NCBI RefSeq assembly: GCF_003121705.1
Contig: NZ_PYHR01000002.1
Span: 1-64,000 of the forward strand
DNA: 64,000 bases
Reading direction: 5' to 3'
DNA from: Serinibacter arcticus
GTDB taxonomy: Bacteria > Actinomycetota > Actinomycetes > Actinomycetales > Beutenbergiaceae
In this document: in pieces, positions 3,600-63,983 of the stretch
How the letters are laid out: each line of letters starts with the position of its first letter
Position numbering within the stretch: position 1 is the first letter of the stretch
Notes under the pieces: model-generated
Told to the model about the DNA's origin: nothing
The model's database searches: none
The model's input: the letters and a program-made list of their open reading frames with translations, nothing else
Program-made: the position numbers and the translations under genes

Positions 3600-4277
3600 A
3601 TGAGCGAGCACAAGGACGACACCACGCCCGAGACCCCGCTGCCGGAGACCGCCACGGACCCGGTGATCCCCGTCGACGAGGCGGTCGACGGCGCCAGCTC
3701 GCCCGACCCCGTCGTCGCCGCGGCCTACGCGCCCGAGCCCGAGGAGCCGACGTCGGAGTCGGACGACCCCGAGCTCACCTTCGAGCCCGAGGGTCAGGGC
3801 GAGGAGATCCAGCTCTACTGGGAGGCGGTGCGCGCCAAGGCCCGTATCGGCCGGCTCGCCGTCTACATGGGCACCGACCTGTCGACCGCGGTGGCCCCGC
3901 CGGCGTGGTCCTTCGGCGACAACCCCCGCCTCGCCGACGAGCTGCTCGGCCACGTCCTGTCAGGCCGCAAGACGGGCACGTCGACGGCGCTGGTCGAGTT
4001 CGGCGAGGAGCCGCTGCCGCGCGAGGGGGAGCTCTCGATCATCCTCGACGGCGCGGGTCACCCGCGGGCCCTCGTGCGGACCACCTCCGTGGCGACCGTG
4101 CGCTTCGACGAGGTCGACGAGGCGTTCGCCCGCGCCGAGGGCGAGGACGACCTGAGCCTGGGCTCCTGGCGCGAGCAGCACGAGACCTACTGGCGCCGGG
4201 TGCTGGGCGTCGACGCCCTCGACCCCGCCACCGAGATCGTCACCGAGCGCTTCGAGCTGCTGGACCCCCGGCCATGA
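3600..4277 (+). CDS. ASCH-domain protein
   Basis: A 225-aa protein with an acidic, Pro/Glu/Asp-rich N-terminal extension (residues 1-65) and a C-terminal ASCH domain, a PUA-like fold thought to bind RNA. The domain shows IQLYWEAVRAKARIG, then LADELLGHVLSGRKTGTS (the G-K/R turn typical of ASCH), EGELSIILDGAGHPRALVRT, and the closing SLGSWREQHETYW. The ATG at 3600 is preceded by TTGAAT six bases upstream, suggesting a leaderless transcript; GTG at 3597 is an alternative. It overlaps the next gene by ATGA. The family is clear; the cellular role is unknown. Confidence 0.8.
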   Translation: MSEHKDDTTPETPLPETATDPVIPVDEAVDGASSPDPVVAAAYAPEPEEPTSESDDPELTFEPEGQGEEIQLYWEAVRAKARIGRLAVYMGTDLSTAVAPPAWSFGDNPRLADELLGHVLSGRKTGTSTALVEFGEEPLPREGELSIILDGAGHPRALVRTTSVATVRFDEVDEAFARAEGEDDLSLGSWREQHETYWRRVLGVDALDPATEIVTERFELLDPRP

Positions 4278-4939
4278 CCTCCGACCTGCCTGACGTCCCG
4301 CGCTGGCAGGACACGCCCGTGGTGACGCCGACGCCGGAGGTGCGCGACGCGCCGACGCCGCTGCTGGCGCAGGCGCACCTGGCCGCGCTGACGGCCACCG
4401 CCGGGCAGATCATCCCGCCGCTCGCCCGCGCCGTCGGGTGGTTGCGGTGGCCCTCGCTGGTCGTGCTGGTCCTCGGCGCGGCCGGACCCGTCCTGCTGAT
4501 CGCCCTGGCGGCGAGCTGGCAGGGCTGGCCGCGTCCGGTCGGGATCGTCGTCGGGCTGCTCGCGCTGGTCCCGGTCGTCCTGCTCGGACGCTCCCGGGCG
4601 GCCACGCTCCGTGCCGCGCGCGCACCGGAGGCCCTCACCGCCGAGCTCGCCGGCTTCGCCGCGCACGTCAACGGCGGTCTGGCGATCCTCGACAAGCTCC
4701 GGGCGGTCGCCCAGGGCGGGGGAGCACGCCTGATCCCGCGCCTGACCGCGCTGTGGAAGGTCGTCCAGCTCCCCGGCGACGCGCTCGAGCACCTCGACCG
4801 GCTGCCCCACCTGCGCTGGTTCCTGCCGCCCCGGGTGACCGACACGTGGGCTCGCGTGATCACGGTCGTCTGGAGCTCGCTGGGGTGCTACCTGCTCTCG
4901 ACCTTCCTCGGGGCGCTGTCGCTCACCGACGTGCTCTGA
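4274..4939 (+). CDS. Predicted membrane protein coupled to the ASCH gene
   Basis: I do not recognise a named family. The 221-aa product has a Pro/Thr-rich N-terminal segment, two adjacent hydrophobic helices (about residues 55-80 and 85-105), an amphipathic middle with Arg-rich stretches, and a hydrophobic C-terminus (about 195-215). Its ATG overlaps the ASCH stop (ATGA), so the two are co-translated. Function cannot be inferred; the coupling suggests a shared process. Confidence 0.75.
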
Positions 4940-38926: not shown

Positions 38927-38998
38927 TGGGGTATGGTGTAATTGGCAGCACGACTGTTTCTGGTACAGTTAGTCTAGGTTCGAGTCCTGGTACCCCAG
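38927..38998 (+). tRNA. tRNA-Gln (anticodon CTG)
   Basis: The cloverleaf can be drawn: acceptor TGGGGTA/TACCCCA with discriminator G, a D arm, the anticodon loop TTCTGGT with CTG at 38960-38962 on the ACTGT/ACAGT stem, and a T arm with GGTTCGAGTCC. The CCA end is not encoded. It decodes CAG, the main glutamine codon in GC-rich genomes. Confidence 0.93.
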
Positions 38999-39019
38999 CG
39001 GTGAAGACAGCCGCCGATT

Positions 39020-39047
39020 TTGCTTGCGAGCAGGAATCGGCTAGAGT
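39020..39047 (+). promoter_or_regulatory. Promoter of tRNA-Glu
   Basis: TTGCTT (39020-39025) and TAGAGT (39042-39047) with a 16-nt spacer lie 31 nt before tRNA-Glu, so this tRNA need not depend on the tRNA-Gln transcript. A small GCCAC-TTCG-GTGGC hairpin follows. Confidence 0.55.
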
Positions 39048-39078
39048 CTTTGAGGCCACTTCGGTGGCTGACCAGCAC

Positions 39079-39151
39079 GGCCCCATCGTATAGCGGCCTA
39101 GTACGTCGCCCTCTCACGGCGGTAACGCGGGTTCGAATCCCGCTGGGGTCA
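39079..39151 (+). tRNA. tRNA-Glu (anticodon CTC)
   Basis: The acceptor GGCCCCA/TGGGGTC has one G:T pair and discriminator A. The anticodon loop CTCTCAC carries CTC at 39113-39115, and the T arm contains GGTTCGAATCC. CCA is not encoded. It decodes GAG. A UUCG-capped terminator follows. Confidence 0.94.
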
Positions 39152-52682: not shown

Positions 52683-54713
52683 ATGTCGACACGCCGCATG
52701 CCCAGGCCCGTGATCTGGGTGTTCGCCATCCTCCCGCTGATCCTCGGTGTGCTGATGATTGCGGTGGTCGGAGGCGGCGAGCGGCCCCGGCTCGCGACCG
52801 ACCAGCTGCCCGCCGGCTACGACTCGACGCTGGCGACCGAGCTCGCCGCCGAGCTCCCCGACGACGCCGGCTCGACCGCCGTCGTCGTCTTCAGCGCGGT
52901 CGGCACCGACGCCCTGGCACCCGAGGCGCTGGGGGAGATCGGCACGCTCCTGACCGACATCTCCGGCGCCGAGCCCGTGCTCGTCCCCTCCGAGGACGGC
53001 ACCGCGGCGCTGGGGATCCTGGCGCTCGAGGCGACAAGCGCGAGCGAGGTGGCCGACGCCGTCGTCGACCTGCGCGAGCAGCTCGACCAGGGGGTGCCCG
53101 ACGGCGTGACGGCGCAGGTCACCGGTCCCGCCGGGATCGAGGCCGACCTCGCCTCCGTGTTCGACGGCGCGAACTTCCGACTGCTCGCGGCCACGGCCCT
53201 CGTCGTCGCCGTGCTCCTGATCGTCACCTACCGCAGCCCCGTGCTGTGGATCATCCCGCTCACCGTGGTGGGCATCGCCGACCAGACGGCCGCCGCGCTG
53301 GCGACCCGGGTGCTCGCCGCCGTCGACATCGCCTGGAACGAGTCGACCACCGGCATCCTCAGCGTGCTGGTGTTCGGCGCCGGCACGAACTACGCGCTGC
53401 TGCTCATCTCGCGCTACCGCGACGAGCTGCGCACCACGGACGACCGGTTCGCCGCGATGGGGCACGCGCTGAAGCGCACGCTCGAGCCCGTCCTGTGCTC
53501 GGCCGGCACCGTCGTGGTCGGCCTGCTCACCCTGCTGCTCTCGCTCGTCCCGACCACGCGCGGCCTCGGGCTCGCGTGCGCGGTCGGGATCGTCGTCGCC
53601 GCGTTCTTCGTGCTCGTGTGCCTGCCCGCGTGCCTCGTGCTGTTCGGGCGCTGGGTGTTCTGGCCCAAGGTGCCCCGCGTCGGGGACGCGCTCGCGAGCG
53701 AGACCCGCTCCGTGTGGCGCCGGATCGGCGACGGCGTCGCCCGCCGCCCGATCGTCGTGGGCTCCGGCGTCGTCGTCGTGCTGGCGCTGCTCGCCGTCGG
53801 CAACACCCAGCTCCGCCTCGGCCTCGACACGGCCGACCAGTTCCTGGTCAAGCCGGAGGCGATCGCCGCCGCGGAGCGCATCTCGGAGTCGTTCCCGGCC
53901 GGGACGTCCAACCCCACCCTCGTGGCCACGCGGGCGGACGCCGCCCAGGTGCAGCAGGCGATCGAGGGCGTCGACGGCGTCGCGTCCGTCGCCCCGGCCG
54001 GCACGGGGGAGGGCGTCACGCAGCTCCAGGTGGTGCTCGACGCGGCCGAGGGGAGCGACGACGCCGACGCCGCCGTCCTCGCGCTGCGGGACGCGCTGGG
54101 CGAGTTCGACGAGACGTACGTCGGCGGCCCCGAGGCCCAGCGCCTCGACGCGACCGACGCCGCCGCCCGCGACCGCGGCCTGATCATCCCGCTCATCCTC
54201 GGCCTGGTGCTCGTGGCGCTGGGGGCCCTGCTGCGGTCGGTGGTGGCGCCGATCCTGCTGGTGCTCACGGTGGTCGGCACGTACTTCGCCTCGCTCGGCG
54301 CCTCGTGGTGGATCTTCACCGGCGTGCTCGGGTTCAACGCGCTCGACGAGGGGGTGCCGCTGCTCGCGTTCCTCTTCCTGGTCGCGCTCGGCGTCGACTA
54401 CAACATCTTCCTCGTCACGCGGGCCCGCGAGGAGAGCCTGGAGCACGGTCCCCGCGAGGGGATGCTCCGGGCGCTCGGGGCCACGGGCGGCGTCATCACG
54501 AGCGCCGGGATCCTGCTGGCGGCCGTCTTCGCCGTCCTCGGGGTGCTGCCGCTCGTCGTGCTCGCCCAGCTCGGCGTCATCGTGTGCCTCGGGGTGCTGC
54601 TGGACACGCTCGTCGTGCGGACGATGCTGGTCCCGTCGCTCGCCCTCGTCCTGGGCGACAAGTTCTGGTGGCCGCGGCGTCTCGGATCCGGACGGCACGC
54701 GTCCGCCATCTGA
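52683..54713 (+). CDS. MMPL/RND family exporter
   Basis: A 676-aa membrane protein of the MmpL/RND class, likely exporting lipids or drugs. The N-terminal helix (PVIWVFAILPLILGVLMIAV) is followed by a periplasmic domain (about 35-160) and a six-helix bundle with GAGTNYALLLISRYRDEL near residue 240. A second repeat with LGVDYNIFLVTRAREESLEHGPREGML near 580 completes the internal duplication. ATG 52683 has AGGAGGA about 8 nt upstream. The candidate operator ties it to the MarR protein two genes upstream. Confidence 0.92.
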   Translation: MSTRRMPRPVIWVFAILPLILGVLMIAVVGGGERPRLATDQLPAGYDSTLATELAAELPDDAGSTAVVVFSAVGTDALAPEALGEIGTLLTDISGAEPVLVPSEDGTAALGILALEATSASEVADAVVDLREQLDQGVPDGVTAQVTGPAGIEADLASVFDGANFRLLAATALVVAVLLIVTYRSPVLWIIPLTVVGIADQTAAALATRVLAAVDIAWNESTTGILSVLVFGAGTNYALLLISRYRDELRTTDDRFAAMGHALKRTLEPVLCSAGTVVVGLLTLLLSLVPTTRGLGLACAVGIVVAAFFVLVCLPACLVLFGRWVFWPKVPRVGDALASETRSVWRRIGDGVARRPIVVGSGVVVVLALLAVGNTQLRLGLDTADQFLVKPEAIAAAERISESFPAGTSNPTLVATRADAAQVQQAIEGVDGVASVAPAGTGEGVTQLQVVLDAAEGSDDADAAVLALRDALGEFDETYVGGPEAQRLDATDAAARDRGLIIPLILGLVLVALGALLRSVVAPILLVLTVVGTYFASLGASWWIFTGVLGFNALDEGVPLLAFLFLVALGVDYNIFLVTRAREESLEHGPREGMLRALGATGGVITSAGILLAAVFAVLGVLPLVVLAQLGVIVCLGVLLDTLVVRTMLVPSLALVLGDKFWWPRRLGSGRHASAI

Positions 54714-54720
54714 GACGAAT

Positions 54721-54738
54721 CGGGGTCGCGAGACCCCG
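54721..54738 (+). terminator. Small terminator-like hairpin after the exporter
   Basis: Arms CGGGGTC/GACCCCG with a GCGA loop lie 7 nt past the exporter stop. Short, with no U-tract. Confidence 0.5.
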
Positions 54739-54753
54739 TGCCGCCAACGCTCC

Positions 54754-54759
54754 TACGGT
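54754..54759 (+). promoter_or_regulatory. -10 box of the LLM/ABC operon
   Basis: TACGGT in TCCTACGGTCGGG lies 41 nt before the ATG of the first gene; GAGGAGC at 54789-54795 is its ribosome site. No dedicated regulator gene adjoins it. Confidence 0.45.
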
Positions 54760-54800
54760 CGGGTCACCCACGCACCACAGCCCGAACCGAGGAGCACGAG

Positions 54801-56468
54801 ATGTCACGCACCACCCCTGTCCGCAGATCGGTCGCGCTCGCCGCCGTGGCCGCCGCCACAGCGATGCTCGCCGCCTGCGGGACGGCCGGCGGTTCGAGCT
54901 CCGGCGGCGACGACGCGACCAGCGGCGAGGGCGGCTCCGCCGCCGCCGGCGAGCCGCAGACCGGCGGCGAGCTGCTGTACCTGGAGTACCAGCCGTACAC
55001 GACGCTGTACCCGCCGCAGTCGGGCTTCTACCCCAACGGCGCCCTCATCGCGAACATCACCGACCGCCTCGTCTACCAGGACCCCGAGACCCTCGAGTTC
55101 TCGCCCTGGATCGCCACGGACTGGGAGATCAACGCCGATGCCACGGAGTACACCTTCAACCTCCGCAGCGGCGTGACGTTCTCCGACGGCACCCCGCTGG
55201 ACGCCGAGGTCGTCGCGAAGAACTTCGACACCTACGGACTCGGTGACCCGGAGGCGGGCTTCCCGATCTCCGAGCAGATCAACAACTACGTCAGCAGCGA
55301 GGTCGTCGACGACGACACCGTGATCTTCCGGTTCTCGGCCCCGGCACCCGGCTTCCTGCAGGCGACCACCGCGAACGGCGCCGGCCTGCTGTCCTCGGCC
55401 ACGCTCGACGGCGACCTGGACTCCTACGCCCCGGGCAACGCGACGAACGTGGTCGGCTCCGGCCCCTTCGTCATCACGGAGGAGACCGTCGGCACCGAGA
55501 TCCTGCTCGAGGCCCGCGAGGACTACGACTGGGCCCCCGAGGACTCCGAGCACCAGGGTCGCGCGTACCTCGACGGCGTCCGGTTCTCCGTGACGCCGGA
55601 GGACAGCGTCCGCATCGGTGCCCTCACCTCGGGCCAGACGGACGTCATCCGCTACGTCCAGGCGTACGACGAGGACCAGGTCGCCGACGCGGGGCTGCAG
55701 CTCTTCGCCCCGCAGACGCAGGGCGTGAACAACAGCCTGTCGCTCCGCTTCACCAACGGGATCCTCGCGGACATCAACGTCCGCAAGGCGATCGTGGCCG
55801 GTGTGAACGCGCAGGAGGTCGTCGACACGGTCTTCACCGAGAACTACCCGGTCGCCACCGGCGTGCTGTCCCACACCGCGCTCGGCTACGTCGACCACGA
55901 GGCCGAGCTGGCCTACGACCCCGACGAGGCGAACCGCCTGCTCGACGAGGCCGGCTGGACCCTCGGCTCGGACGGCATCCGTGAGAAGGACGGTCAGAAG
56001 CTGACGCTCGTGGCCAGCGAGGCCAAGCCCCAGCCGCTCTCGCGCGACACCCTGACGCTCGTCTCCCAGCAGCTCAAGACGATCGGCGTCGACCTGCAGA
56101 TCCTCGCCGCCGACTCCGGCACCTACGCCGAGGCGATCAAGGACCCCGAGCAGGTGCAGCTGTACCACTCGATGGTCGGACGCACGGACCTCGACGTCAT
56201 CAAGAGCCAGTACCACTCGGCCAACCGCAACGCGAACCTGTCGAACGACGCCGAGCTCGACCGCCTCCTGGAGCTCGTCTCCTCGACGGCCGAGCCCGAG
56301 GCTCGCCTGGCGGCCACGGCTGCCGCCCAGCAGTACCTGGTCGACCAGGCCTACGTGATTCCGCTGTTCGAGGAGCCCCAGGTCTACGGCGCGCAGCCGT
56401 ACGTCCAGGGCTTCGGCTGGGACACCATCGCCCGTCCGGTCTTCTACAGCACCTGGCTCGAGCAGTGA
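54801..56468 (+). CDS. ABC transporter substrate-binding lipoprotein of the LLM/CMD operon
   Basis: A 555-aa family-5 binding protein. The signal peptide ends in LAAC (Cys near residue 24); the SBP_bac_5 domain has GGELLYLEYQPYTTLYPP, ALIANITDRLVYQDPETLEFSPWIATDWEI and TFSDGTPLDAEVVAKNF. By recall it resembles the KPN_01854-type binding proteins (TIGR04028), which occur only beside LLM and alkylhydroperoxidase-like genes. Ligand unknown. GTGA overlap couples it to the first permease. It is the operon's first gene. Confidence 0.88.
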   Translation: MSRTTPVRRSVALAAVAAATAMLAACGTAGGSSSGGDDATSGEGGSAAAGEPQTGGELLYLEYQPYTTLYPPQSGFYPNGALIANITDRLVYQDPETLEFSPWIATDWEINADATEYTFNLRSGVTFSDGTPLDAEVVAKNFDTYGLGDPEAGFPISEQINNYVSSEVVDDDTVIFRFSAPAPGFLQATTANGAGLLSSATLDGDLDSYAPGNATNVVGSGPFVITEETVGTEILLEAREDYDWAPEDSEHQGRAYLDGVRFSVTPEDSVRIGALTSGQTDVIRYVQAYDEDQVADAGLQLFAPQTQGVNNSLSLRFTNGILADINVRKAIVAGVNAQEVVDTVFTENYPVATGVLSHTALGYVDHEAELAYDPDEANRLLDEAGWTLGSDGIREKDGQKLTLVASEAKPQPLSRDTLTLVSQQLKTIGVDLQILAADSGTYAEAIKDPEQVQLYHSMVGRTDLDVIKSQYHSANRNANLSNDAELDRLLELVSSTAEPEARLAATAAAQQYLVDQAYVIPLFEEPQVYGAQPYVQGFGWDTIARPVFYSTWLEQ

Positions 56469-57400
56469 GATACGCCCTCGGCCGCGTCGCCTCCGCCGCG
56501 GGGGTGCTGCTGGCGGCCTTCACCGTCGCGTTCCTCCTGCTGCAGGCGCTCCCCGGCGATGCCGTGATGATCCGCTTCGAGAACCCCGAGCTGGGGCTCT
56601 CGCCGGAGCAGATCGCGGGCATCCGGGAGAGCTACGGCGCGGACGTGGGCCTCCTCACGCAGTTCTGGCACTCCCTGTCCGGTGCCCTCGGAGGCGACCT
56701 CGGCTACTCGGTCGCCTCCGGGGCCCCGGTGCGGGTCCTGGTGGGATCGGCGATCCCGTCGACGCTGCTGCTGGCGGGGCTCGGGTTCGTCGTCGCGGCG
56801 ATCCTCGCGGGTCTGCTCGCCTTCGGCGCCATCCTCAGCCCGTCCGGGTGGCTGGCCTCGTTCCTGCGGTCGCTGCCCTCGCTGTTCGTCTCGGTGCCGG
56901 TCTTCTGGCTCGGCATCGTGCTCATCCAGATCTTCAGCTTCCGGCTCGGCCTGATCTCCGTGATCCGACCGGGACCGCTGGAGGCGCTGATCCTTCCCGT
57001 GCTCACGCTCGCGGTGCCGATCAGCGCCCCGATGGCGCAGGTGCTCGTCCGGGCGATCGACGACGTCCAGGCGCAGCCGTTCATCACGGTCGTCCGCTCC
57101 AAGGGGGCGGGCGAGGCGTGGATCCTCGTCAAGAACGTGCTGCGGAACGCCGCGCTGCCCGCCCTGACGATCGCCGGCGTCCTGCTGGGCGAGCTCATCG
57201 GCGGCGCCGTCGTGACCGAGACCGTGTTCGCGCGGTTCGGCATCGGCCGCCTGACGGCCGACGCCCTGGACACCCAGGACATCCCCGTGCTGCAGGCGAT
57301 CGTCGTGGTCGCGGCGCTGGCCTTCGTCGTCGTCAACCTCCTGGTGGACCTCGTCGCCCCGCTCATCGACCCGCGCCTCAAGCGCCGGGTCCAGGCCTGA
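56465..57400 (+). CDS. ABC transporter permease (DppB-like) of the LLM/CMD operon
   Basis: A 311-aa permease with a start helix (RYALGRVASAAGVLLAAFTVAFLLLQALPGD), then five or so further helices and the EAA loop VRSKGAGEAWILVKNVLRNAALP near residue 215. The GTG overlaps the binding-protein stop by 4 nt. It pairs with the DppC-like permease 10 nt downstream. Confidence 0.93.
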   Translation: MRYALGRVASAAGVLLAAFTVAFLLLQALPGDAVMIRFENPELGLSPEQIAGIRESYGADVGLLTQFWHSLSGALGGDLGYSVASGAPVRVLVGSAIPSTLLLAGLGFVVAAILAGLLAFGAILSPSGWLASFLRSLPSLFVSVPVFWLGIVLIQIFSFRLGLISVIRPGPLEALILPVLTLAVPISAPMAQVLVRAIDDVQAQPFITVVRSKGAGEAWILVKNVLRNAALPALTIAGVLLGELIGGAVVTETVFARFGIGRLTADALDTQDIPVLQAIVVVAALAFVVVNLLVDLVAPLIDPRLKRRVQA

Positions 57401-57410
57401 GGAGCACGCC

Positions 57411-58295
57411 ATGACCCTCGAGCTCGAACGCGTCGCGCTGCTCCCCCCGGAGGGTGAGGGGACCCCCGGTCCCCGCGCCCGCCGTCGTCGTCGCCTCCCC
57501 AAGGTCGGCGTCACCCTCGCCCTCGCCGTCCTCGTCCTCGTGGTCGCCTGGGCCCTCGTGCCCCAGCTCTTCACGAGCTACGACCCCTACGTCGGCGTCC
57601 CGGCCGACGCGCTGCAGGGCCCGAGCGCGGCCCACTGGTTCGGCACCGACTCCACGGGCCGCGACCTGTTCAGCCGCGTCGTGCACGGCTCGCGCTACTC
57701 GCTGACGGGCGGCGTGGTCGCCGTCGCGGTCGGGCTCGTCGCCGGCACCGCGATCGGCGTCATCGCCGGCTCGATCGGCACGATCATCGACGAGGTCCTG
57801 ATGCGCGTCGTCGACGTGCTGCTCTCGATCCCCGGCCTGCTGCTCAGCCTCTCGGTCATCATCCTGCTCGGCTTCGGCACCACCAACGCCGCGATCGCGG
57901 TGGGCGTGACGTCGGTCGCCTCGTTCGCACGCCTGTCGCGCTCCGAGGTGGTGCGCGTGCGTCGGTCGGACTACGTCGAGGCCGCCTTCGGCAGCGGCGG
58001 TCGCTGGTGGAGCGTGCTGTGGCGCCACGTGCTGCCCAACTCGCTCACGCCCGTGCTCGCGCTGGCCGCGCTCCAGTTCGGCACCGCGATCCTGGCCATC
58101 TCCACCCTCGGCTTCCTCGGCTACGGCGCCCCGCCGCCCACGCCCGAGTGGGGCCTGCTCATCTCGGAGGGGCGCAGCCACCTGGCCACCTCGTGGTGGC
58201 TCACGACCCTGCCCGGCGTGATCGTCGTGCTCGTCGTGCTGTCGGCCAACCGCCTCTCCGCCGCCATCTCCTCGGCAAGGACGGCCCGCTCATGA
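57411..58295 (+). CDS. ABC transporter permease (DppC-like) of the LLM/CMD operon
   Basis: A 294-aa permease: a basic N-terminus, first helix near residue 35-55, HWFGTDSTGRDLFSRVVHGSRYS near 75, EAA loop AFGSGGRWWSVLWRHVLPNSLTP near 195, and the final WWLTTLPGVIVVLVVLSANRLS helix. GGAGCAC lies just before the ATG. It overlaps the ATPase gene by 4 nt. Confidence 0.93.
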   Translation: MTLELERVALLPPEGEGTPGPRARRRRRLPKVGVTLALAVLVLVVAWALVPQLFTSYDPYVGVPADALQGPSAAHWFGTDSTGRDLFSRVVHGSRYSLTGGVVAVAVGLVAGTAIGVIAGSIGTIIDEVLMRVVDVLLSIPGLLLSLSVIILLGFGTTNAAIAVGVTSVASFARLSRSEVVRVRRSDYVEAAFGSGGRWWSVLWRHVLPNSLTPVLALAALQFGTAILAISTLGFLGYGAPPPTPEWGLLISEGRSHLATSWWLTTLPGVIVVLVVLSANRLSAAISSARTARS

Positions 58296-59908
58296 CCGCT
58301 CTCCTGGACGTCCGCGGCCTCTCGGTCGGGTACGGCAACCACGGCGGTGACGTCACCCAGGTGACGCACGACGTCACGTTCTCGGTCGCCCCCGGCGAGA
58401 TCCTCGCGCTGGTGGGGGAGTCGGGCTCGGGGAAGACGACGACGGCGCAGGCCGTCATCAACCTGCTGCCCCAGGGCGGTCAGGTGCTCGGCGGCAGCAT
58501 CGAGCTGGAGGGCGAGGACGTCACGTCAGCCTCCGGCTCGCGCTGGCGCTCCCTGCGCGGCCGCCGGGTCGGCCTCGTGCCGCAGGACCCGGGCGGCTCC
58601 CTGGACCCGACCAAGCGCATCGGCGACTCGATCGCCGAGGCGTTCCGGATCCACCGCGCCGCCCCGCGCCGCGTGCTCGAGAGCCGTGTCGTGGAGCTGC
58701 TGGAGCGTGTCGGCATCGACGACCCGGCGCGGCGCGCCAAGCAGTACCCGCACGAGCTCTCGGGCGGCATGAAGCAGCGCGTGCTCATCGCCGGGGCCAT
58801 CGCGCTGGGACCGGGGCTGCTGATCGCCGACGAGCCGACCTCGGCCCTCGACGTCACCGTGCAGCGCCGGATCATGGAGCTGCTCGACGACCTGCGCCGC
58901 GAGTCCGGCACCGGCATCCTCCTGGTCACGCACGACCTCGCGCTGGCCGGCGACCACGCGGATCGCGTGCTCGTGCTCCAGGGCGGCCGCGTGCAGGAGG
59001 AGGGGACGAGCGAGGAGGTGCTCGGCAACCCGAGCGCCGACTACACGCGCCGTCTGCTCGCCGACGCCCCCACCCTCGCGAGCCCCGTCCACCGCGTGGC
59101 GCGCACACCTGAGCCGGACGAGCGTCCCGTGCTGGCCGTGAACGACCTCGTCGTGGAGTTCGGCGGCGGGCGGTTCACCCGGACCCCGGCCTTCCGGGCG
59201 GTCGACGGCGTCAGCTTCGCCATCGCGCACGGCACCACGCACGCGCTCGTGGGGGAGTCCGGTTCGGGGAAGACGACGACGGCGCGCGCGATCGCCGCCT
59301 TCCAGCCCGCCACCTCGGGCCAGGTCACGCTCCTGGGCATCGACGTGCTGGCGGCGCACGGCTCGCCCCGCCGGCAGCTGCGACGCAACGTCCAGCTCGT
59401 CTACCAGAACCCGTTCGGCTCGCTCGACCCCCGCCAGACGGTCCTGGAGGTCGTCACCGAACCCCTGACGAACTTCGGCCTCGAGGGGTCGCCCGCGGAG
59501 CGTCGCGAGCACGCCGTCAAGGCGCTCGAGCGGGTCTCCCTCCCCGCGGCGCTGCACCAGCGGCGCCCGCGCGAGCTCTCGGGCGGCCAGCGCCAGCGCG
59601 TGGCGATCGCCCGCGCGATCGTGCTGCACCCGGAGCTGCTCATCCTCGACGAGGCCACCAGCGCCCTCGACGTCACCGTCCAGGCGGAGATCCTCCGCCT
59701 GCTGGACGACCTGCAACGCGAGCGCGGCATGACCTACCTCGTCATCTCCCACGACCTCGCGGTGGTGCGCCAGATCGCCGACACCGTGACGGTGCTCCGC
59801 CACGGTCGAACGGTCGAGCAGGGCACGACGGCGGAGATCTTCGCCTCGCCGCAGCAGGACTACACCCGCGATCTCATCGCCGCCATCCCCGGAGGAGTTC
59901 ACCCATGA
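58292..59908 (+). CDS. Fused double ABC ATPase of the LLM/CMD operon
   Basis: A 538-aa protein with two complete ATPase domains in one chain, a fusion of DppD- and DppF-type subunits. Domain 1 (about 1-265): GESGSGKT near residue 40, VPQDPGGSLDP, LSGGMKQRV, LLIADEP. Domain 2 (about 275-535): GESGSGKT near 325, VYQNPFGSLDP, LSGGQRQRV, LLILDEA, and AEIFASPQQDYTRDLIAAIPGG. It serves both nucleotide sites of the importer. The ATG overlaps the DppC-like permease; its stop overlaps the LLM gene. The other importer in this window has separate ATPases. Confidence 0.93.
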   Translation: MTALLDVRGLSVGYGNHGGDVTQVTHDVTFSVAPGEILALVGESGSGKTTTAQAVINLLPQGGQVLGGSIELEGEDVTSASGSRWRSLRGRRVGLVPQDPGGSLDPTKRIGDSIAEAFRIHRAAPRRVLESRVVELLERVGIDDPARRAKQYPHELSGGMKQRVLIAGAIALGPGLLIADEPTSALDVTVQRRIMELLDDLRRESGTGILLVTHDLALAGDHADRVLVLQGGRVQEEGTSEEVLGNPSADYTRRLLADAPTLASPVHRVARTPEPDERPVLAVNDLVVEFGGGRFTRTPAFRAVDGVSFAIAHGTTHALVGESGSGKTTTARAIAAFQPATSGQVTLLGIDVLAAHGSPRRQLRRNVQLVYQNPFGSLDPRQTVLEVVTEPLTNFGLEGSPAERREHAVKALERVSLPAALHQRRPRELSGGQRQRVAIARAIVLHPELLILDEATSALDVTVQAEILRLLDDLQRERGMTYLVISHDLAVVRQIADTVTVLRHGRTVEQGTTAEIFASPQQDYTRDLIAAIPGGVHP

Positions 59909-60945
59909 CGGAGTCGTTGTCGCACCTGCGGCTCGGCGTGTTCACGCGCCTGCTCGACGAGACCTCGCCCCGCGAGCGGTACCGCAACGCGACCGAGCAG
60001 ATCGTCGCGGCCGAGCGCCTGGGCTACCACTCGGCGTGGGTCGCCCAGCACCACTTCCACGCGCTCGAGGGCGGCCTGCCGGCTCCCGCCGTTCTGCTCG
60101 CCTCGGTCGCCTCGCTGACCTCGCGGATCCGGCTGGGCTTCGGCGTCATCACGCTGCCGCTGGAGCACCCGCTGCGCGTCGCCGAGGACCTCGCCGTGCT
60201 CGACGAGATCTCCGGCGGTCGGGTGGAGGTCGGCTTCGGCACCGGTGGCACGCCGAGCTCCTTCCGGGCGTTCGGCTTCGACCCGGCCGACCGCCGCCAG
60301 ATCTACGCCGACCACATCGCCGTCGTCACGGACGCGTGGGCGGGGCGCGACATCGCCGATCCCGAGAACCAGCTCTACCCGCCGGCCCCGACGCTCGCCG
60401 CACGGCGGTGGGAGGCGACGTTCTCCGCCGAGGGTGCCGCCCGGATCGGCGCGGCCGGCTCCGGTCTCATGCTCTCCCGCAGCCAGCCGCGTCCCGACGC
60501 GACGCCGGACATCACCATCTGGGAGCAGCAGGAGCCGCTCGTCGACGCCTACCTCGCGGCCCTCCCGACCGGGGTGGAGCCGCGCATCGCGGCGTCCCGC
60601 ACGGTCTTCGTGGCCGACGACGAGCCGACCTGGCGCCGCGAGGCCGACCGCGGCCTGCGCTCGGTCGCCGTCCGCGGCGGGCTGTGGGGACTCGACCCCG
60701 ACGCCGACCTGGAGGTGCTCGTCGAGCGCTCCAACAGCGTGGTCGGGACGAGCGAGCAGGTCGCGGAGCAGCTGGCCCGCGACACGATCCTCACGCGCGC
60801 CACCGACCTGCTCGTGCAGGTCCACTCCGTCGACCCCGTGCACGAGCTGGTGCTGCGTTCGCACGAGCTCCTCGCCCGCGAGGTCGCCCCGGTGCTCGGC
60901 CTGAGCACCGGATCCACCACCACCGAGCTGGAGGCCGCGCGATGA
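59905..60945 (+). CDS. Luciferase-like flavin-dependent monooxygenase (KPN_01858-like)
   Basis: A 346-aa bacterial-luciferase-like (LLM) protein, a TIM barrel using FMNH2 or F420. Visible are LRLGVFTRLLDETSPRERYRN, GYHSAWVAQHHFHALEGGLPAPAVLLA, RIRLGFGVITLPLEHPLRVAEDLAVLDEISGGRVEVGFGTGGTP near residue 75-115, and the C-terminal GLWGLDPDADLEVL. It matches, by recall, the KPN_01858 family (TIGR04027) always found with this importer. Substrate unknown; monooxygenation of an imported organosulfur, amine or ester is conceivable. ATGA overlaps on both sides. Confidence 0.87.
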   Translation: MTESLSHLRLGVFTRLLDETSPRERYRNATEQIVAAERLGYHSAWVAQHHFHALEGGLPAPAVLLASVASLTSRIRLGFGVITLPLEHPLRVAEDLAVLDEISGGRVEVGFGTGGTPSSFRAFGFDPADRRQIYADHIAVVTDAWAGRDIADPENQLYPPAPTLAARRWEATFSAEGAARIGAAGSGLMLSRSQPRPDATPDITIWEQQEPLVDAYLAALPTGVEPRIAASRTVFVADDEPTWRREADRGLRSVAVRGGLWGLDPDADLEVLVERSNSVVGTSEQVAEQLARDTILTRATDLLVQVHSVDPVHELVLRSHELLAREVAPVLGLSTGSTTTELEAAR

Positions 60946-61544
60946 GCGCCACCCTGCTGACGCCCCCCGACCTCCTGGACGACGTGCTGGGGGTGAGCGA
61001 GGGCGACGCGATCGACGCCGTCCGTCGCTCGCGTCCCGCCGCCCGGGAGAACACCCAGGCCACCCTGACGGCGCTGTTCGCGCTCGAGGACGGGGCCGAC
61101 GGCGCCGACGTCCCCACGCTGGCCGAGCGGCTCGCGGTGGCGACGTTCGTCGTCGGGCTGCACGGCGAGTCGCCGCTGCTGGCCGTCTACGCGGCCGACC
61201 TCGACCCCGAGGTCCGCGACGTCGTGACCGGGCTGGTCGCGCAGGCCGTCCGTCCCGGCCCGTTCGGGGTCTACCGCGAGCCCGGGCTGGCGGAGGAGTC
61301 CGTCGAGGGCCCGCGCTGGGCCGCGCCGACCGACGCGCTGGGGCCGCGGCTCGCGGCCGCCCTCACGCACGCGGCGCTGCTGGTGCAGCGTCCGCGCGAG
61401 TCCTCGCCGCAGGCCCTGGCGGCGCTGCTGGCCGCCGGCTGGAGCCGGACCGAGATCGTCACCCTGTCCCAGCTCGTCGCGTTCCTCACCTACCAGGTGC
61501 GGGTCGTGGCCGGCCTCGCCGTCCTGAAGGAGTCACGTTCATGA
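60942..61544 (+). CDS. CMD-domain protein (Avi_7170-like)
   Basis: A 200-aa protein of the carboxymuconolactone-decarboxylase/AhpD-like superfamily that resembles, by recall, the Avi_7170 family (TIGR04029). The N-terminal part holds LLDDVLGVSEGDAIDAVRRSRP and the C-terminal part LAALLAAGWSRTEIVTLSQLVAFLTYQVRVVAGL. No CXXC is present, so it lacks the peroxidase cysteine pair of its neighbour and may be a structural or binding partner. ATGA overlaps with both neighbours. Confidence 0.84.
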   Translation: MSATLLTPPDLLDDVLGVSEGDAIDAVRRSRPAARENTQATLTALFALEDGADGADVPTLAERLAVATFVVGLHGESPLLAVYAADLDPEVRDVVTGLVAQAVRPGPFGVYREPGLAEESVEGPRWAAPTDALGPRLAAALTHAALLVQRPRESSPQALAALLAAGWSRTEIVTLSQLVAFLTYQVRVVAGLAVLKESRS

Positions 61545-62203
61545 GCACCGCACACGTCGCCGGCGACGGCTCCCTCGCCACGGCCCCCGAGGTCACCACC
61601 TACCCCGAGCTGGACCGCCCCGAGCACTTCACGCGGGCCAACCTCGGCTGGGTGCCGTGGCTGGAGCCGCCCACGGCCGAGGAGCTCACCGAGGAGCAGT
61701 ACGTCGGTCTCGTGGACCGCCGTCGCGACTCGAGCCCGTACTTCCGCCTGCTCGCCCTCGACCCCGCGGTGCTCGCCGCGCGGACGAAGGCCGACATCGA
61801 CATCTTCCACACGTCCTCGCGCGACGGCGACGGGCTGCCGCGGCCCGAGCGCGAGCTCGCGGCCGCCGTCGCCTCCCGCGTGAACGGCTGCGTGTTCTGC
61901 GCGTCCGTCCACGCGCGGTTCTCGGCGCAGCTCTCCCACCGGGAGGCCGACATCGACCTCCTCCTGGCCGAGGGCGTCGAGTCGGCCGCGGGAGCGCTCG
62001 ACCCGCGCTGGTCGGCGATCCTGAACGCGGCCGAGGCCCTGACCGTCACGCCGCCGCGGTTCGGCACGGAGCACGTGGCCTCGCTGCGCTCCGTCGGGCT
62101 CAGCGACGAGGCGATCGGCGACCTCGTCTCCTCGGCCGGGTTCTTCTCCTGGGCCAACCGTCTGATGCTGTCGCTGGGCGAGCCCGAGAACCCGGCGAGC
62201 TGA
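61541..62203 (+). CDS. AhpD-like alkylhydroperoxidase-domain protein (Avi_7169-like)
   Basis: A 220-aa protein with the AhpD redox motif CVFCASVH near residue 122 (CXXC plus His), preceded by PERELAAAVASRVNG with the conserved Glu. The N-terminus HFTRANLGWVPWLEPPTAEELT is typical of the Avi_7169 family (TIGR04030 by recall). AhpD-type proteins cycle a disulfide to reduce peroxides, so it may remove peroxide made by the LLM enzyme; that is inference. It ends the seven-gene operon. Confidence 0.87.
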   Translation: MSTAHVAGDGSLATAPEVTTYPELDRPEHFTRANLGWVPWLEPPTAEELTEEQYVGLVDRRRDSSPYFRLLALDPAVLAARTKADIDIFHTSSRDGDGLPRPERELAAAVASRVNGCVFCASVHARFSAQLSHREADIDLLLAEGVESAAGALDPRWSAILNAAEALTVTPPRFGTEHVASLRSVGLSDEAIGDLVSSAGFFSWANRLMLSLGEPENPAS

Positions 62204-62263: not shown

Positions 62264-62271
62264 CGGCGACC

Positions 62272-62985
62272 GTGGCCTCAACGACTCGGACGACCTCCGC
62301 CAGCTACCGCTTCATCGCCGGGCTGATCAGACCCTTCCTCCGGCTGATCTCGAAGCGCACCTGGTACGGCGTCGAGAACCTGGACCGCAGCGAGGGGTTC
62401 ATCGTCGCCGCGAACCACGTCTCGACGCTCGACCCGCTGACCACTGCGCACGTGCTCTACAACAACGGCGCCCCGCCGCGCATCATGGCCAAGGCCGAGC
62501 TGTTCAAGGTCCCGATCTTCGGCGCCCTGCTGCGCTCCTCGGGCCAGATCCCCGTGCACCGCAACAGCCGGAACGCGGCCGAGTCGCTCGACGGCGCCCG
62601 CGCGGCGCTGGCCGCGGGCGAGTGCGTGATGATCTTCCCGGAGGGCACCCTGACGCTCGACCCCGAGGGCTGGCCGATGGTCGCGCGCACCGGAGTCGCG
62701 CGCCTCGCGCTCAGCACCCGGGCGCCCGTGCTCCCGCTCGCGCAGTGGGGCGCGAGCGCGATCCTGCCGCGCCAGTCCTTCGTCCTGCGGCTGTTCCCGC
62801 GCAAGCGGGTGCTCGCGATCGTCGGCCCCCCGGTCGAGCTGAGCGACCTGCACGGCCGCCAGGACTCCGCCGCGCTGGTCGAGGCGACGGCGCGGATCAT
62901 GGCCGCCATCACCTCGCAGCTCGCGGAGCTGCGGGGCGAAGAGCCCCCGACCGAGCCGTTCGACCGCCGTCGGGCGGGCGTGTAG
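62272..62985 (+). CDS. plsC: 1-acyl-sn-glycerol-3-phosphate acyltransferase
   Basis: It forms phosphatidic acid in membrane lipid synthesis. From GTG 62272 it is 237 aa: TWYGVENLDRSEGFIVAANHVSTLDPLTT has the catalytic HX4D, KAELFKVPIFGALLRSSGQIPVHR the second block, and MIFPEGTLTLD the FPEGT motif. The GTG is supported by the -10 spacing. Its TAG overlaps the GTG of gpsA, giving a two-gene lipid-precursor operon. Confidence 0.92.
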   Translation: MASTTRTTSASYRFIAGLIRPFLRLISKRTWYGVENLDRSEGFIVAANHVSTLDPLTTAHVLYNNGAPPRIMAKAELFKVPIFGALLRSSGQIPVHRNSRNAAESLDGARAALAAGECVMIFPEGTLTLDPEGWPMVARTGVARLALSTRAPVLPLAQWGASAILPRQSFVLRLFPRKRVLAIVGPPVELSDLHGRQDSAALVEATARIMAAITSQLAELRGEEPPTEPFDRRRAGV

Positions 62986-63983
62986 TGGTGCGCTGCACCG
63001 TCGTCGGTTCCGGCAGCTGGGGGACGACGTTCGCCCAGGTGCTCGCCGACGCCGGCAACGAGGTCGTCGTGTGGACGGCGCGCGAGGCCACGGCCCGCTC
63101 GATCACGGACGACCACGCCAACCCGACCTACCTGCCCGGCATCGCGCTCTCCGACGCGATCTCCGCCACCACGGACCTGACCGCCGCGCTCGCGGGGGCC
63201 GAGGTCGTCGTCGTCGCGCTCCCGTCGCAGATCGTGCGCGAGGTGCTGGCCCCGTACGCCGCGGCCGTGCCCGGCGACGCCGTCGTGGTCAGCCTGATGA
63301 AGGGCGTCGAGCTCGGGACCGACGAGCGCATGAGCCAGGTGCTCGGGGAGATCTGGGACCTGCCGACCGAGCGGATCGCCGTCGTGTCGGGGCCGAACCT
63401 CGCCGGTGAGATCGCCCTCCAGCAGCCGACCACCACGGTCGTCGCCTGCGAGGACGAGGACGTCGCGCTGCGGATCGCCCGGACCTGCGCGACGCCGTAC
63501 TTCCGCACGTTCACCACGACCGACGTCATCGGCGTCGAGATCGGCGGCGCGGTCAAGAACGTCATCGCGCTCGCCGTCGGCATCGCCCAGGGCCTGGGGT
63601 ACGGCGACAACACGATGGCCTCGATCATGACGCGCGGCCTGTCCGAGGCCGCCCGGATCGGCGCGGCGGTGGGCGCGCAGCCCGCGACGTTCGCCGGCCT
63701 GGCCGGGATGGGCGACCTCATCGCCACGTGCTCCTCGCCGCTCTCGCGCAACCACCGTCTCGGCTCGCTGCTCGGCCAGGGCCGCTCGCTCGAGGAGGCC
63801 GTGGTGGAGATCGGGTCGACGGCGGAGGGCGCGAAGTCCTGCCGCTCGATCCTCGACCTCGCCCACCAGCACGGCGTGAAGACGTCGATCATCGCGGCCG
63901 TCGTCGCGGTGCTGTACGAGGGCATGACGGTGCCCGAGATGGTCGCGAGGCTGGTCGACCGGCCGCCGCGGCCCGAGGACTGA
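62985..63983 (+). CDS. gpsA: Glycerol-3-phosphate dehydrogenase [NAD(P)+]
   Basis: It makes glycerol-3-phosphate from dihydroxyacetone phosphate for lipid synthesis. It is 332 aa: RCTVVGSGSWGTTFAQVLADAGN is the Rossmann motif, PSQIVREVL near residue 80, VVSGPNLAGEIA near 135, IGGAVKNVIALAVGIAQGLGYGDN with the catalytic Lys near 190, and AGMGDLIATCSSPLSRNHRLG near 245. GTG 62985 and GTG 62988 are both possible. It overlaps plsC by one base. Confidence 0.95.
   Translation: MVRCTVVGSGSWGTTFAQVLADAGNEVVVWTAREATARSITDDHANPTYLPGIALSDAISATTDLTAALAGAEVVVVALPSQIVREVLAPYAAAVPGDAVVVSLMKGVELGTDERMSQVLGEIWDLPTERIAVVSGPNLAGEIALQQPTTTVVACEDEDVALRIARTCATPYFRTFTTTDVIGVEIGGAVKNVIALAVGIAQGLGYGDNTMASIMTRGLSEAARIGAAVGAQPATFAGLAGMGDLIATCSSPLSRNHRLGSLLGQGRSLEEAVVEIGSTAEGAKSCRSILDLAHQHGVKTSIIAAVVAVLYEGMTVPEMVARLVDRPPRPED

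Follow-up and report, generated by a model that had tools for sequence, protein, structure and literature searches.

An importer, monooxygenase and AhpD operon of Serinibacter arcticus as a candidate organosulfur-scavenging cassette

Introduction

Four NCBIfam families mark a bacterial gene cassette (KPN_01854-01858 and Avi_7169/7170 types): the luciferase-like monooxygenase (LLM) family TIGR04027, the substrate-binding protein (SBP) family TIGR04028, the CMD protein family TIGR04029 and the AhpD-type family TIGR04030. No physiological substrate has been established for this cassette, as a sequence-only reading of the locus studied here had also stated. We analysed a seven-gene operon of this type at 54801-62203 (+ strand) of a 64,000-nucleotide stretch of Serinibacter arcticus DNA (contig NZ_PYHR01000002.1, positions 1 to 64,000; hereafter the window), which lies on one of the two contigs of a 4.06 Mb genome. 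The operon joins an ABC importer to an LLM, a CMD protein and an AhpD-type protein. We propose, with a probability of roughly 0.6, that it is an organosulfur-scavenging unit used under sulfur limitation.

Several described systems resemble parts of the operon. The closest solved protein to the window LLM is 8K74, the crystal structure of PCX02514 of Klebsiella sp. PCX, which has a positively charged pocket; its paper claims an NADPH-dependent cleavage of poly(acrylic acid) with a turnover of 0.002 per second and no activity with FMN or FMNH2. The Corynebacterium glutamicum genes cg2678-cg2674 encode, as annotated in the papers cited below, a binding protein, permeases, a duplicated ATPase and a CMD protein, all of which recur in the window operon. 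The SsuD/SfnG, NtaA/DmoA and MsnO8 monooxygenases, which serve the use of sulfur compounds or xenobiotics, share the Bac_luciferase superfamily (Pfam) with the LLM, and adjoin the cassette in some genomes. Human Sestrin2 joins an active to an inactive AhpD-like domain in tandem (PMC4674687). The sequence-only reading had presented the locus as the best candidate for an undescribed system in the window, and had listed organosulfur compounds among its growth panels while not proposing sulfur as the likely purpose. The term 'undescribed' could not be kept: the families are NCBIfam entries, one member has a structure and a claimed activity, and the C. glutamicum operon belongs to a known sulfur regulon.

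Results

We used profile searches to place the operon. The SBP (54801..56468) scored 751 bits against the NCBIfam cut-off of 468.5 for TIGR04028, the LLM (59905..60945) 454.1 against 412.9 for TIGR04027, the CMD protein (60942..61544) 159.3 against 100.75 for TIGR04029 and the AhpD-type protein (61541..62203; also PF02627) 241.8 against 233.15 for TIGR04030, the last by a narrow margin. All four assignments proposed in the sequence-only reading were thereby confirmed, as were the coordinates and order of the seven genes. Neighbouring genes overlap by 4 nt (ATGA/GTGA) at five of the six junctions, and a 10-nt gap separates the two permease genes, so the seven genes are likely to share one transcript. 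The order SBP-permease 1-permease 2-ATPase-LLM-CMD-AhpD was found to recur in Actinobacteria, Alphaproteobacteria and Gammaproteobacteria. Since all four models are exceeded and the gene order recurs, the window operon counts as a typical member of a cassette that has been catalogued but is functionally orphan. It shows no difference of weight from the NCBIfam cassette; its CMD and AhpD genes are separate, while they form one frame in 34 of 99 relatives.

The conserved neighbourhood that had been postulated was sought in 80 relatives, which are the best of 588 confirmed matches and for this reason lean to close kin. They come from Actinobacteria, Rhizobiales, Inquilinus, Enterobacterales, Bartonella, Rokubacteria and others, and their LLMs are 53-83% identical to the window LLM. 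All seven genes were present in 44 of the 80 at E 1e-12, and a further 19 lacked only CMD at this threshold; when CMD was sought at E 1e-6 it was recovered in all 19, giving a total of 63/80. The remaining 17 loci were cut at contig ends, or lacked either the importer or the CMD-AhpD pair. Among 22 relatives from the same order, 19 had the seven genes, two were without CMD and AhpD, and one had the LLM alone. An LLM above the TIGR04027 cut-off was found in 23 of 198 genomes of the order (source genome included), and a TIGR04028 match at E 1e-120 in 12 of 394 genomes of the class, where no more than three candidates per genome were scored. The LLM-CMD-AhpD trio was found without this importer in Bartonella and Rokubacteria, and with a Liv-type importer in Belnapia. 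The trio therefore forms the core of the cassette, and the importer is exchangeable.

A cluster of Glyoxalase_3 (PF13468) proteins was found in 18 of the 80 loci, mostly directly behind AhpD and often in tandem. Eight of the 22 cassette loci of the order (L121-L124, L126, L129-L131) had such a gene divergent to or behind the operon; Pfam was run on three of these order-locus proteins, from two loci. We regard Glyoxalase_3 as an optional eighth part of the cassette. No Glyoxalase_3 gene adjoins the operon in the window.

Published expression data tie relatives of the operon to sulfur supply. In C. glutamicum, a table of PMC2807442 gives the McbR* mark to cg2678, cg2677, cg2675 (the duplicated ATPase) and cg2674 (CMD), which at pH 6 rise along with methionine and cysteine genes. 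Mutation of cysR lowers the expression of cg2678-74 (PMC2580772), and a third study places cg2678 among the McbR targets and finds it rising alongside ssu and cys genes (PMC6892785). A TIGR04028 match over the cut-off was found in the C. glutamicum genome. In Klebsiella pneumoniae, KPN_01858 rises together with TauC during iron limitation (PMC7194016), which fits sulfur as well as iron. The openly accessible literature that we searched held nothing tying the LLM cassette to sulfur.

A second line of evidence came from RNA elements. One actinobacterial relative (L115) carries an Rfam SAM riboswitch (56.1 bits, 4088-4182) on the strand of the operon, about 0.5 kb before the SBP gene, which starts near 4688, and no other gene was called between the two. 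The interval (L115:4183-4688) contains a short frame (..RCDRGFFASRRRHVDHCRCGATACR) that resembles a Cys/Arg-rich leader peptide. Such a leader-peptide pattern upstream of the operon was found in L115 alone among 35 actinobacterial sources; matches in the window and in a near relative (L032) were rejected, as they fell only in a shadow frame of an MMPL gene.

The LLM-less layout of C. glutamicum (SBP, two permeases, ATPase, CMD/AhpD) was also found in L151, a small genome of the same class. Divergent to this cassette is a gene (L151:4051-5967) for a 638-residue FAD-NAD(P)-binding protein (PF13454), possibly a replacement oxidoreductase there. A McbR-like half-site with two mismatches, 21 nt before the SBP gene of L151, was given no weight, with 7 matches per 17 kb against 1.8 expected.

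We then counted sulfur-type genes lying up to 10 kb from the LLM. In the 23 genomes of the order, which were drawn regardless of their neighbours, an NtaA/DmoA-type monooxygenase was found in 4/23 (expected 0.19, Poisson 5e-5), but these are not four independent events because all four genomes belong to one family. A test on 39 genomes gave NtaA-type genes in 5/39 (expected 0.37) and SsuA-type genes in 3/39 (expected 0.22). The 39 had been picked from the 80 after NtaA- and TauC-type neighbours were seen, so this set is biased upward and we rely on the 23 order genomes. As a control, PF13407 gave 113 matches in the 39 genomes and none within 30 kb of the LLM (nearest 34 kb, by eye), a weak control because only about 0.3 were expected within 10 kb. 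Clustering of the neighbours across the 80 loci gave an NtaA-type cluster in six and a TauC-type cluster in five.

Individual loci show richer sulfur contexts. The operon of L044 is preceded by an NtaA-type monooxygenase and a rhodanese, and followed by a methionine-synthase-like gene, relatives of cystathionine gamma-synthase and O-acetylhomoserine sulfhydrylase, and two SAM riboswitches. SsuA/TauC-type genes flank the operon on both sides in L098, SsuD-like and NtaA-type enzymes lie nearby in L116, and a CymR-like regulator in L077. Near the operon of L108 are MsnO8-type and NtaA-type LLMs, an M20 hydrolase and a sulfatase-like gene. An L083-type region (G083:C1:2643984-2670855) is a dense monooxygenase island, with four NtaA/DmoA-type matches and a second, weaker TIGR04027-like LLM (258.5 bits) within about 20 kb of the cassette.

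The window LLM was next compared with characterised members of its superfamily. It shares 176 of 321 residues with 8K74, and four of the five active residues proposed for that protein are conserved: R15, R130, S191 and R192 correspond to R10, R125, S186 and R187 of the 8K74 paper. In an alignment of 21 LLMs Arg10, Ser186 and Arg187 (8K74 numbering) were invariant and Arg125 was R in 18 and K in three, whereas the fifth residue, His253, is G in the window LLM and varies among the 21 relatives. Given the positive pocket of 8K74, an anionic substrate fits. The poly(acrylic acid) activity is claimed for the Klebsiella protein, and the window LLM is not known to have it.

The window LLM scored 33.9 bits against the NtaA/DmoA model TIGR03860 (cut-off 279.7) and far below the NCBIfam cut-off for MsnO8. 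The SsuD model TIGR03565 (cut-off 518.2) was not among the best 25 of 26 families listed, which a match over the cut-off would outrank. F420-type models were below their cut-offs among the matches listed for the LLM, and no search was aimed at F420 synthesis genes. The source genome has four PF01613 flavin reductases, none in the operon and one beside an NtaA-type monooxygenase at 2.19 Mb; an FMN-reductase cluster was present in 4/80 loci.

The importer resembles the Dpp/Nik type in its permeases and fused ATPase (NCBIfam, Pfam). The SBP matches PF00496 (family 5) and has a lipobox-like LAAC, read from its sequence, marking it as a putative lipoprotein. Its AlphaFold2 (AF2) model (pLDDT 88.4) has 5u4o, NikA, YliB, CtaP and AgaA as closest solved folds; as modelled, it resembles family 5 proteins in general and names no ligand. 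The SBP stayed below the NCBIfam equivalog cut-offs for NikA (148 of 393 bits), DppA (92.5 of 1005) and GsiB (76.9 of 594). Permease 1 (56465..57400; DppB/NikB type; PF00528, PF19300) has a GTG start within its 4-nt overlap, and its best NCBIfam match is below the cut-off; permease 2 (57411..58295; DppC/NikC type; PF00528) follows after the 10-nt gap. The fused double ATPase (58292..59908), with two ABC_tran stretches, is YejF/GsiA-like, yet falls below those NCBIfam cut-offs.

The last two genes were examined as a pair. The window AhpD reads E105-x11-C117-VF-C120-ASV-H124 (61853..61912, + strand), and the pattern E-x11-C-x2-C-x3-H, the catalytic pattern of Mycobacterium tuberculosis AhpD, was kept in 98 of 98 AhpD homologues recovered from 108 loci. 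The sequence-only reading had noticed the intact motif in the window protein as CVFCASVH. The same search recovered 101 CMD homologues and none had a CxxC, which agrees with its absence from the window CMD, also noticed earlier. The sequence-only reading had suggested that the AhpD pair may remove peroxide; the peroxidase residues are kept in just one of the two proteins, AhpD. The window CMD has no Pfam match, but a CMD profile aligned with the profile of its AhpD partner (probability 88.7, E 2.5e-6) and matched the AhpD structure 6k40 at 1e-7; LLM against AhpD profiles, run as a control, showed no similarity (probability 0.3). Judged by these profiles, CMD is a degenerate relative of AhpD.

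Of the 99 loci having both CMD and AhpD, 34 encode the two in a single open frame. These include the 19 loci in which CMD was found at E 1e-6, K. michiganensis (L099), several same-order relatives, L108 (11021-12121) and L151 (11140-12348). A 366-residue fusion protein of Pantoea exceeds both the TIGR04029 and the TIGR04030 cut-offs. This constant coupling argues for CMD and AhpD working as one hetero-unit.

The L151 fusion was modelled with AF2 (pLDDT 80.7, pTM 0.81), and the model was compared with solved structures. One domain aligned with AhpD-type structures (TM on target 0.72-0.77). The fusion also aligned lengthwise with Sestrin2 (5dj4, 5t0n), the better alignments reaching a TM on query of 0.45-0.51, at an rmsd of 8-11 A and E >0.001. 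As in Sestrin2, an active and a degenerate AhpD-type domain are paired; the order of the active and inactive domains is reversed, and no sequence relationship is shown. We read the modelled likeness as one of plan, not of membership.

The flanks of the operon in the window were also inspected. An MMPL-family transporter gene (52683-54713) lies directly upstream, separated by an 87-nt gap (54714..54800, + strand) with a 7+7 inverted repeat (54721-54738), which may be a terminator or an operator. A related MMPL gene adjoins the operon in the near relatives L032, L125 and L127, with a MarR-type gene close by, and the MMPL gene may be a lineage-specific companion of the operon. Translations from downstream (62270-63983) resemble an acyltransferase and an NAD-dependent glycerol-3-phosphate dehydrogenase and look unrelated to the operon. 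Two tRNA genes (38927-39151) were the sole Rfam matches in the window, so it has no SAM riboswitch.

Discussion

We propose that the operon scavenges organosulfur compounds when sulfur is limiting. If it is used in S. arcticus as in its relatives, the lipoprotein and its peptide/nickel-type ABC importer would take up an anionic organosulfur compound. The LLM, given FMNH2 by a reductase encoded elsewhere, would then oxidise this compound at or beside its C-S bond, which would free sulfur for assimilation. AhpD would be the redox-active half of the hetero-unit and would reduce a peroxide, sulfenate or disulfide arising in the process; CMD would be the inactive half, with a structural or ligand-binding part.

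A number of observations weigh against this proposal. Nothing sulfur-specific lies beside the operon in the source genome, whose NtaA and SsuA homologues are far away, and the window shares its want of a riboswitch with most relatives, a pre-operon SAM riboswitch having been found in only 1 of the 49 scanned. An SsuA-type (sulfonate-transporter) marker occurred within 10 kb of the LLM in 0/23 order genomes, and the NtaA/DmoA excess in this set comes from a single family. The C. glutamicum genome, for which the McbR and CysR control is published, has no TIGR04027 LLM over the cut-off, and we infer from gene content that cg2678 is its TIGR04028 match. In K. michiganensis, nearest to the name-giving genus, the neighbours are an unrelated alcohol dehydrogenase, MFS exporter and formate dehydrogenase. 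The sole assayed relative, 8K74, is claimed to need no flavin for its action on poly(acrylic acid). The remaining contrary observations come from other neighbourhoods and regulators, and point to the two alternatives that follow.

The cassette could instead serve carbon or nitrogen catabolism, importing an anionic compound that contains no sulfur, akin to an aminopolycarboxylate, opine or carboxylate, which the LLM oxidises and the AhpD pair processes. Among the folds closest to the SBP are an opine-binding protein and NikA, which has also been seen with Fe-EDTA; the Belnapia loci combine the Liv-type importer with an amidohydrolase and PdxA; Rahnella loci adjoin rut genes (rutG) and some rhizobial loci a HutC-like regulator. 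The cleavage of poly(acrylic acid) reported for the 8K74 protein would belong here as well, but its turnover is only 0.002 per second and needs no flavin, and H253 is not conserved in the window LLM. Neither McbR/CysR control, nor the SAM riboswitch, nor the excess of sulfur-type monooxygenases is predicted by such a role, and we consider it rather unlikely. A role in oxidative stress, or in iron or heme supply, with a metal chelate or protectant imported and peroxide removed by the AhpD pair, seems to us more doubtful still. It would account for the complete AhpD motif, for the heme-uptake genes beside the Bartonella trio loci, for the control of cg2675-78 by the heme-responsive HrrA (PMC9491836) and for the rise of KPN_01858 in iron-limited K. 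pneumoniae. TauC rose in the same iron-limited set, so sulfur may explain that rise, and the McbR/CysR control of the C. glutamicum genes speaks against a stress or iron unit. Finally, the operon could encode a common oligopeptide importer followed by enzymes that have nothing to do with it. This would match the ordinary Dpp/Nik-type permeases and ATPase, but seven genes in the same order in 63/80 loci of several classes, with 4-nt overlaps in the window, make this highly improbable, and conservation nearly refutes it.

The organosulfur proposal can be carried one step further, although here we are doubtful. CMD-AhpD could be a bacterial counterpart of the Sestrin plan, in which the inactive half would sense or hold a small sulfur metabolite and, through the monooxygenase product, gate or steer the redox half, within an unrecognised, widespread organic-sulfur route that has its own dedicated importer.

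Plant-associated bacteria carry the cassette, as do bacteria of soil and gut, and its four families have long been catalogued without a purpose; the useful additions to that record are the link to sulfur and the tandem of an active with an inactive AhpD. If the sulfur role is true, the known entry ways of organic sulfur would gain a peptide-type importer, the growth tests and ligands to try would come down to a few, and poly(acrylic acid) cleavage would become doubtful as what the LLM family naturally does. With an intact and a degenerate AhpD constantly paired and often fused, the cassette offers a simple bacterial model of a Sestrin-like active/inactive tandem.

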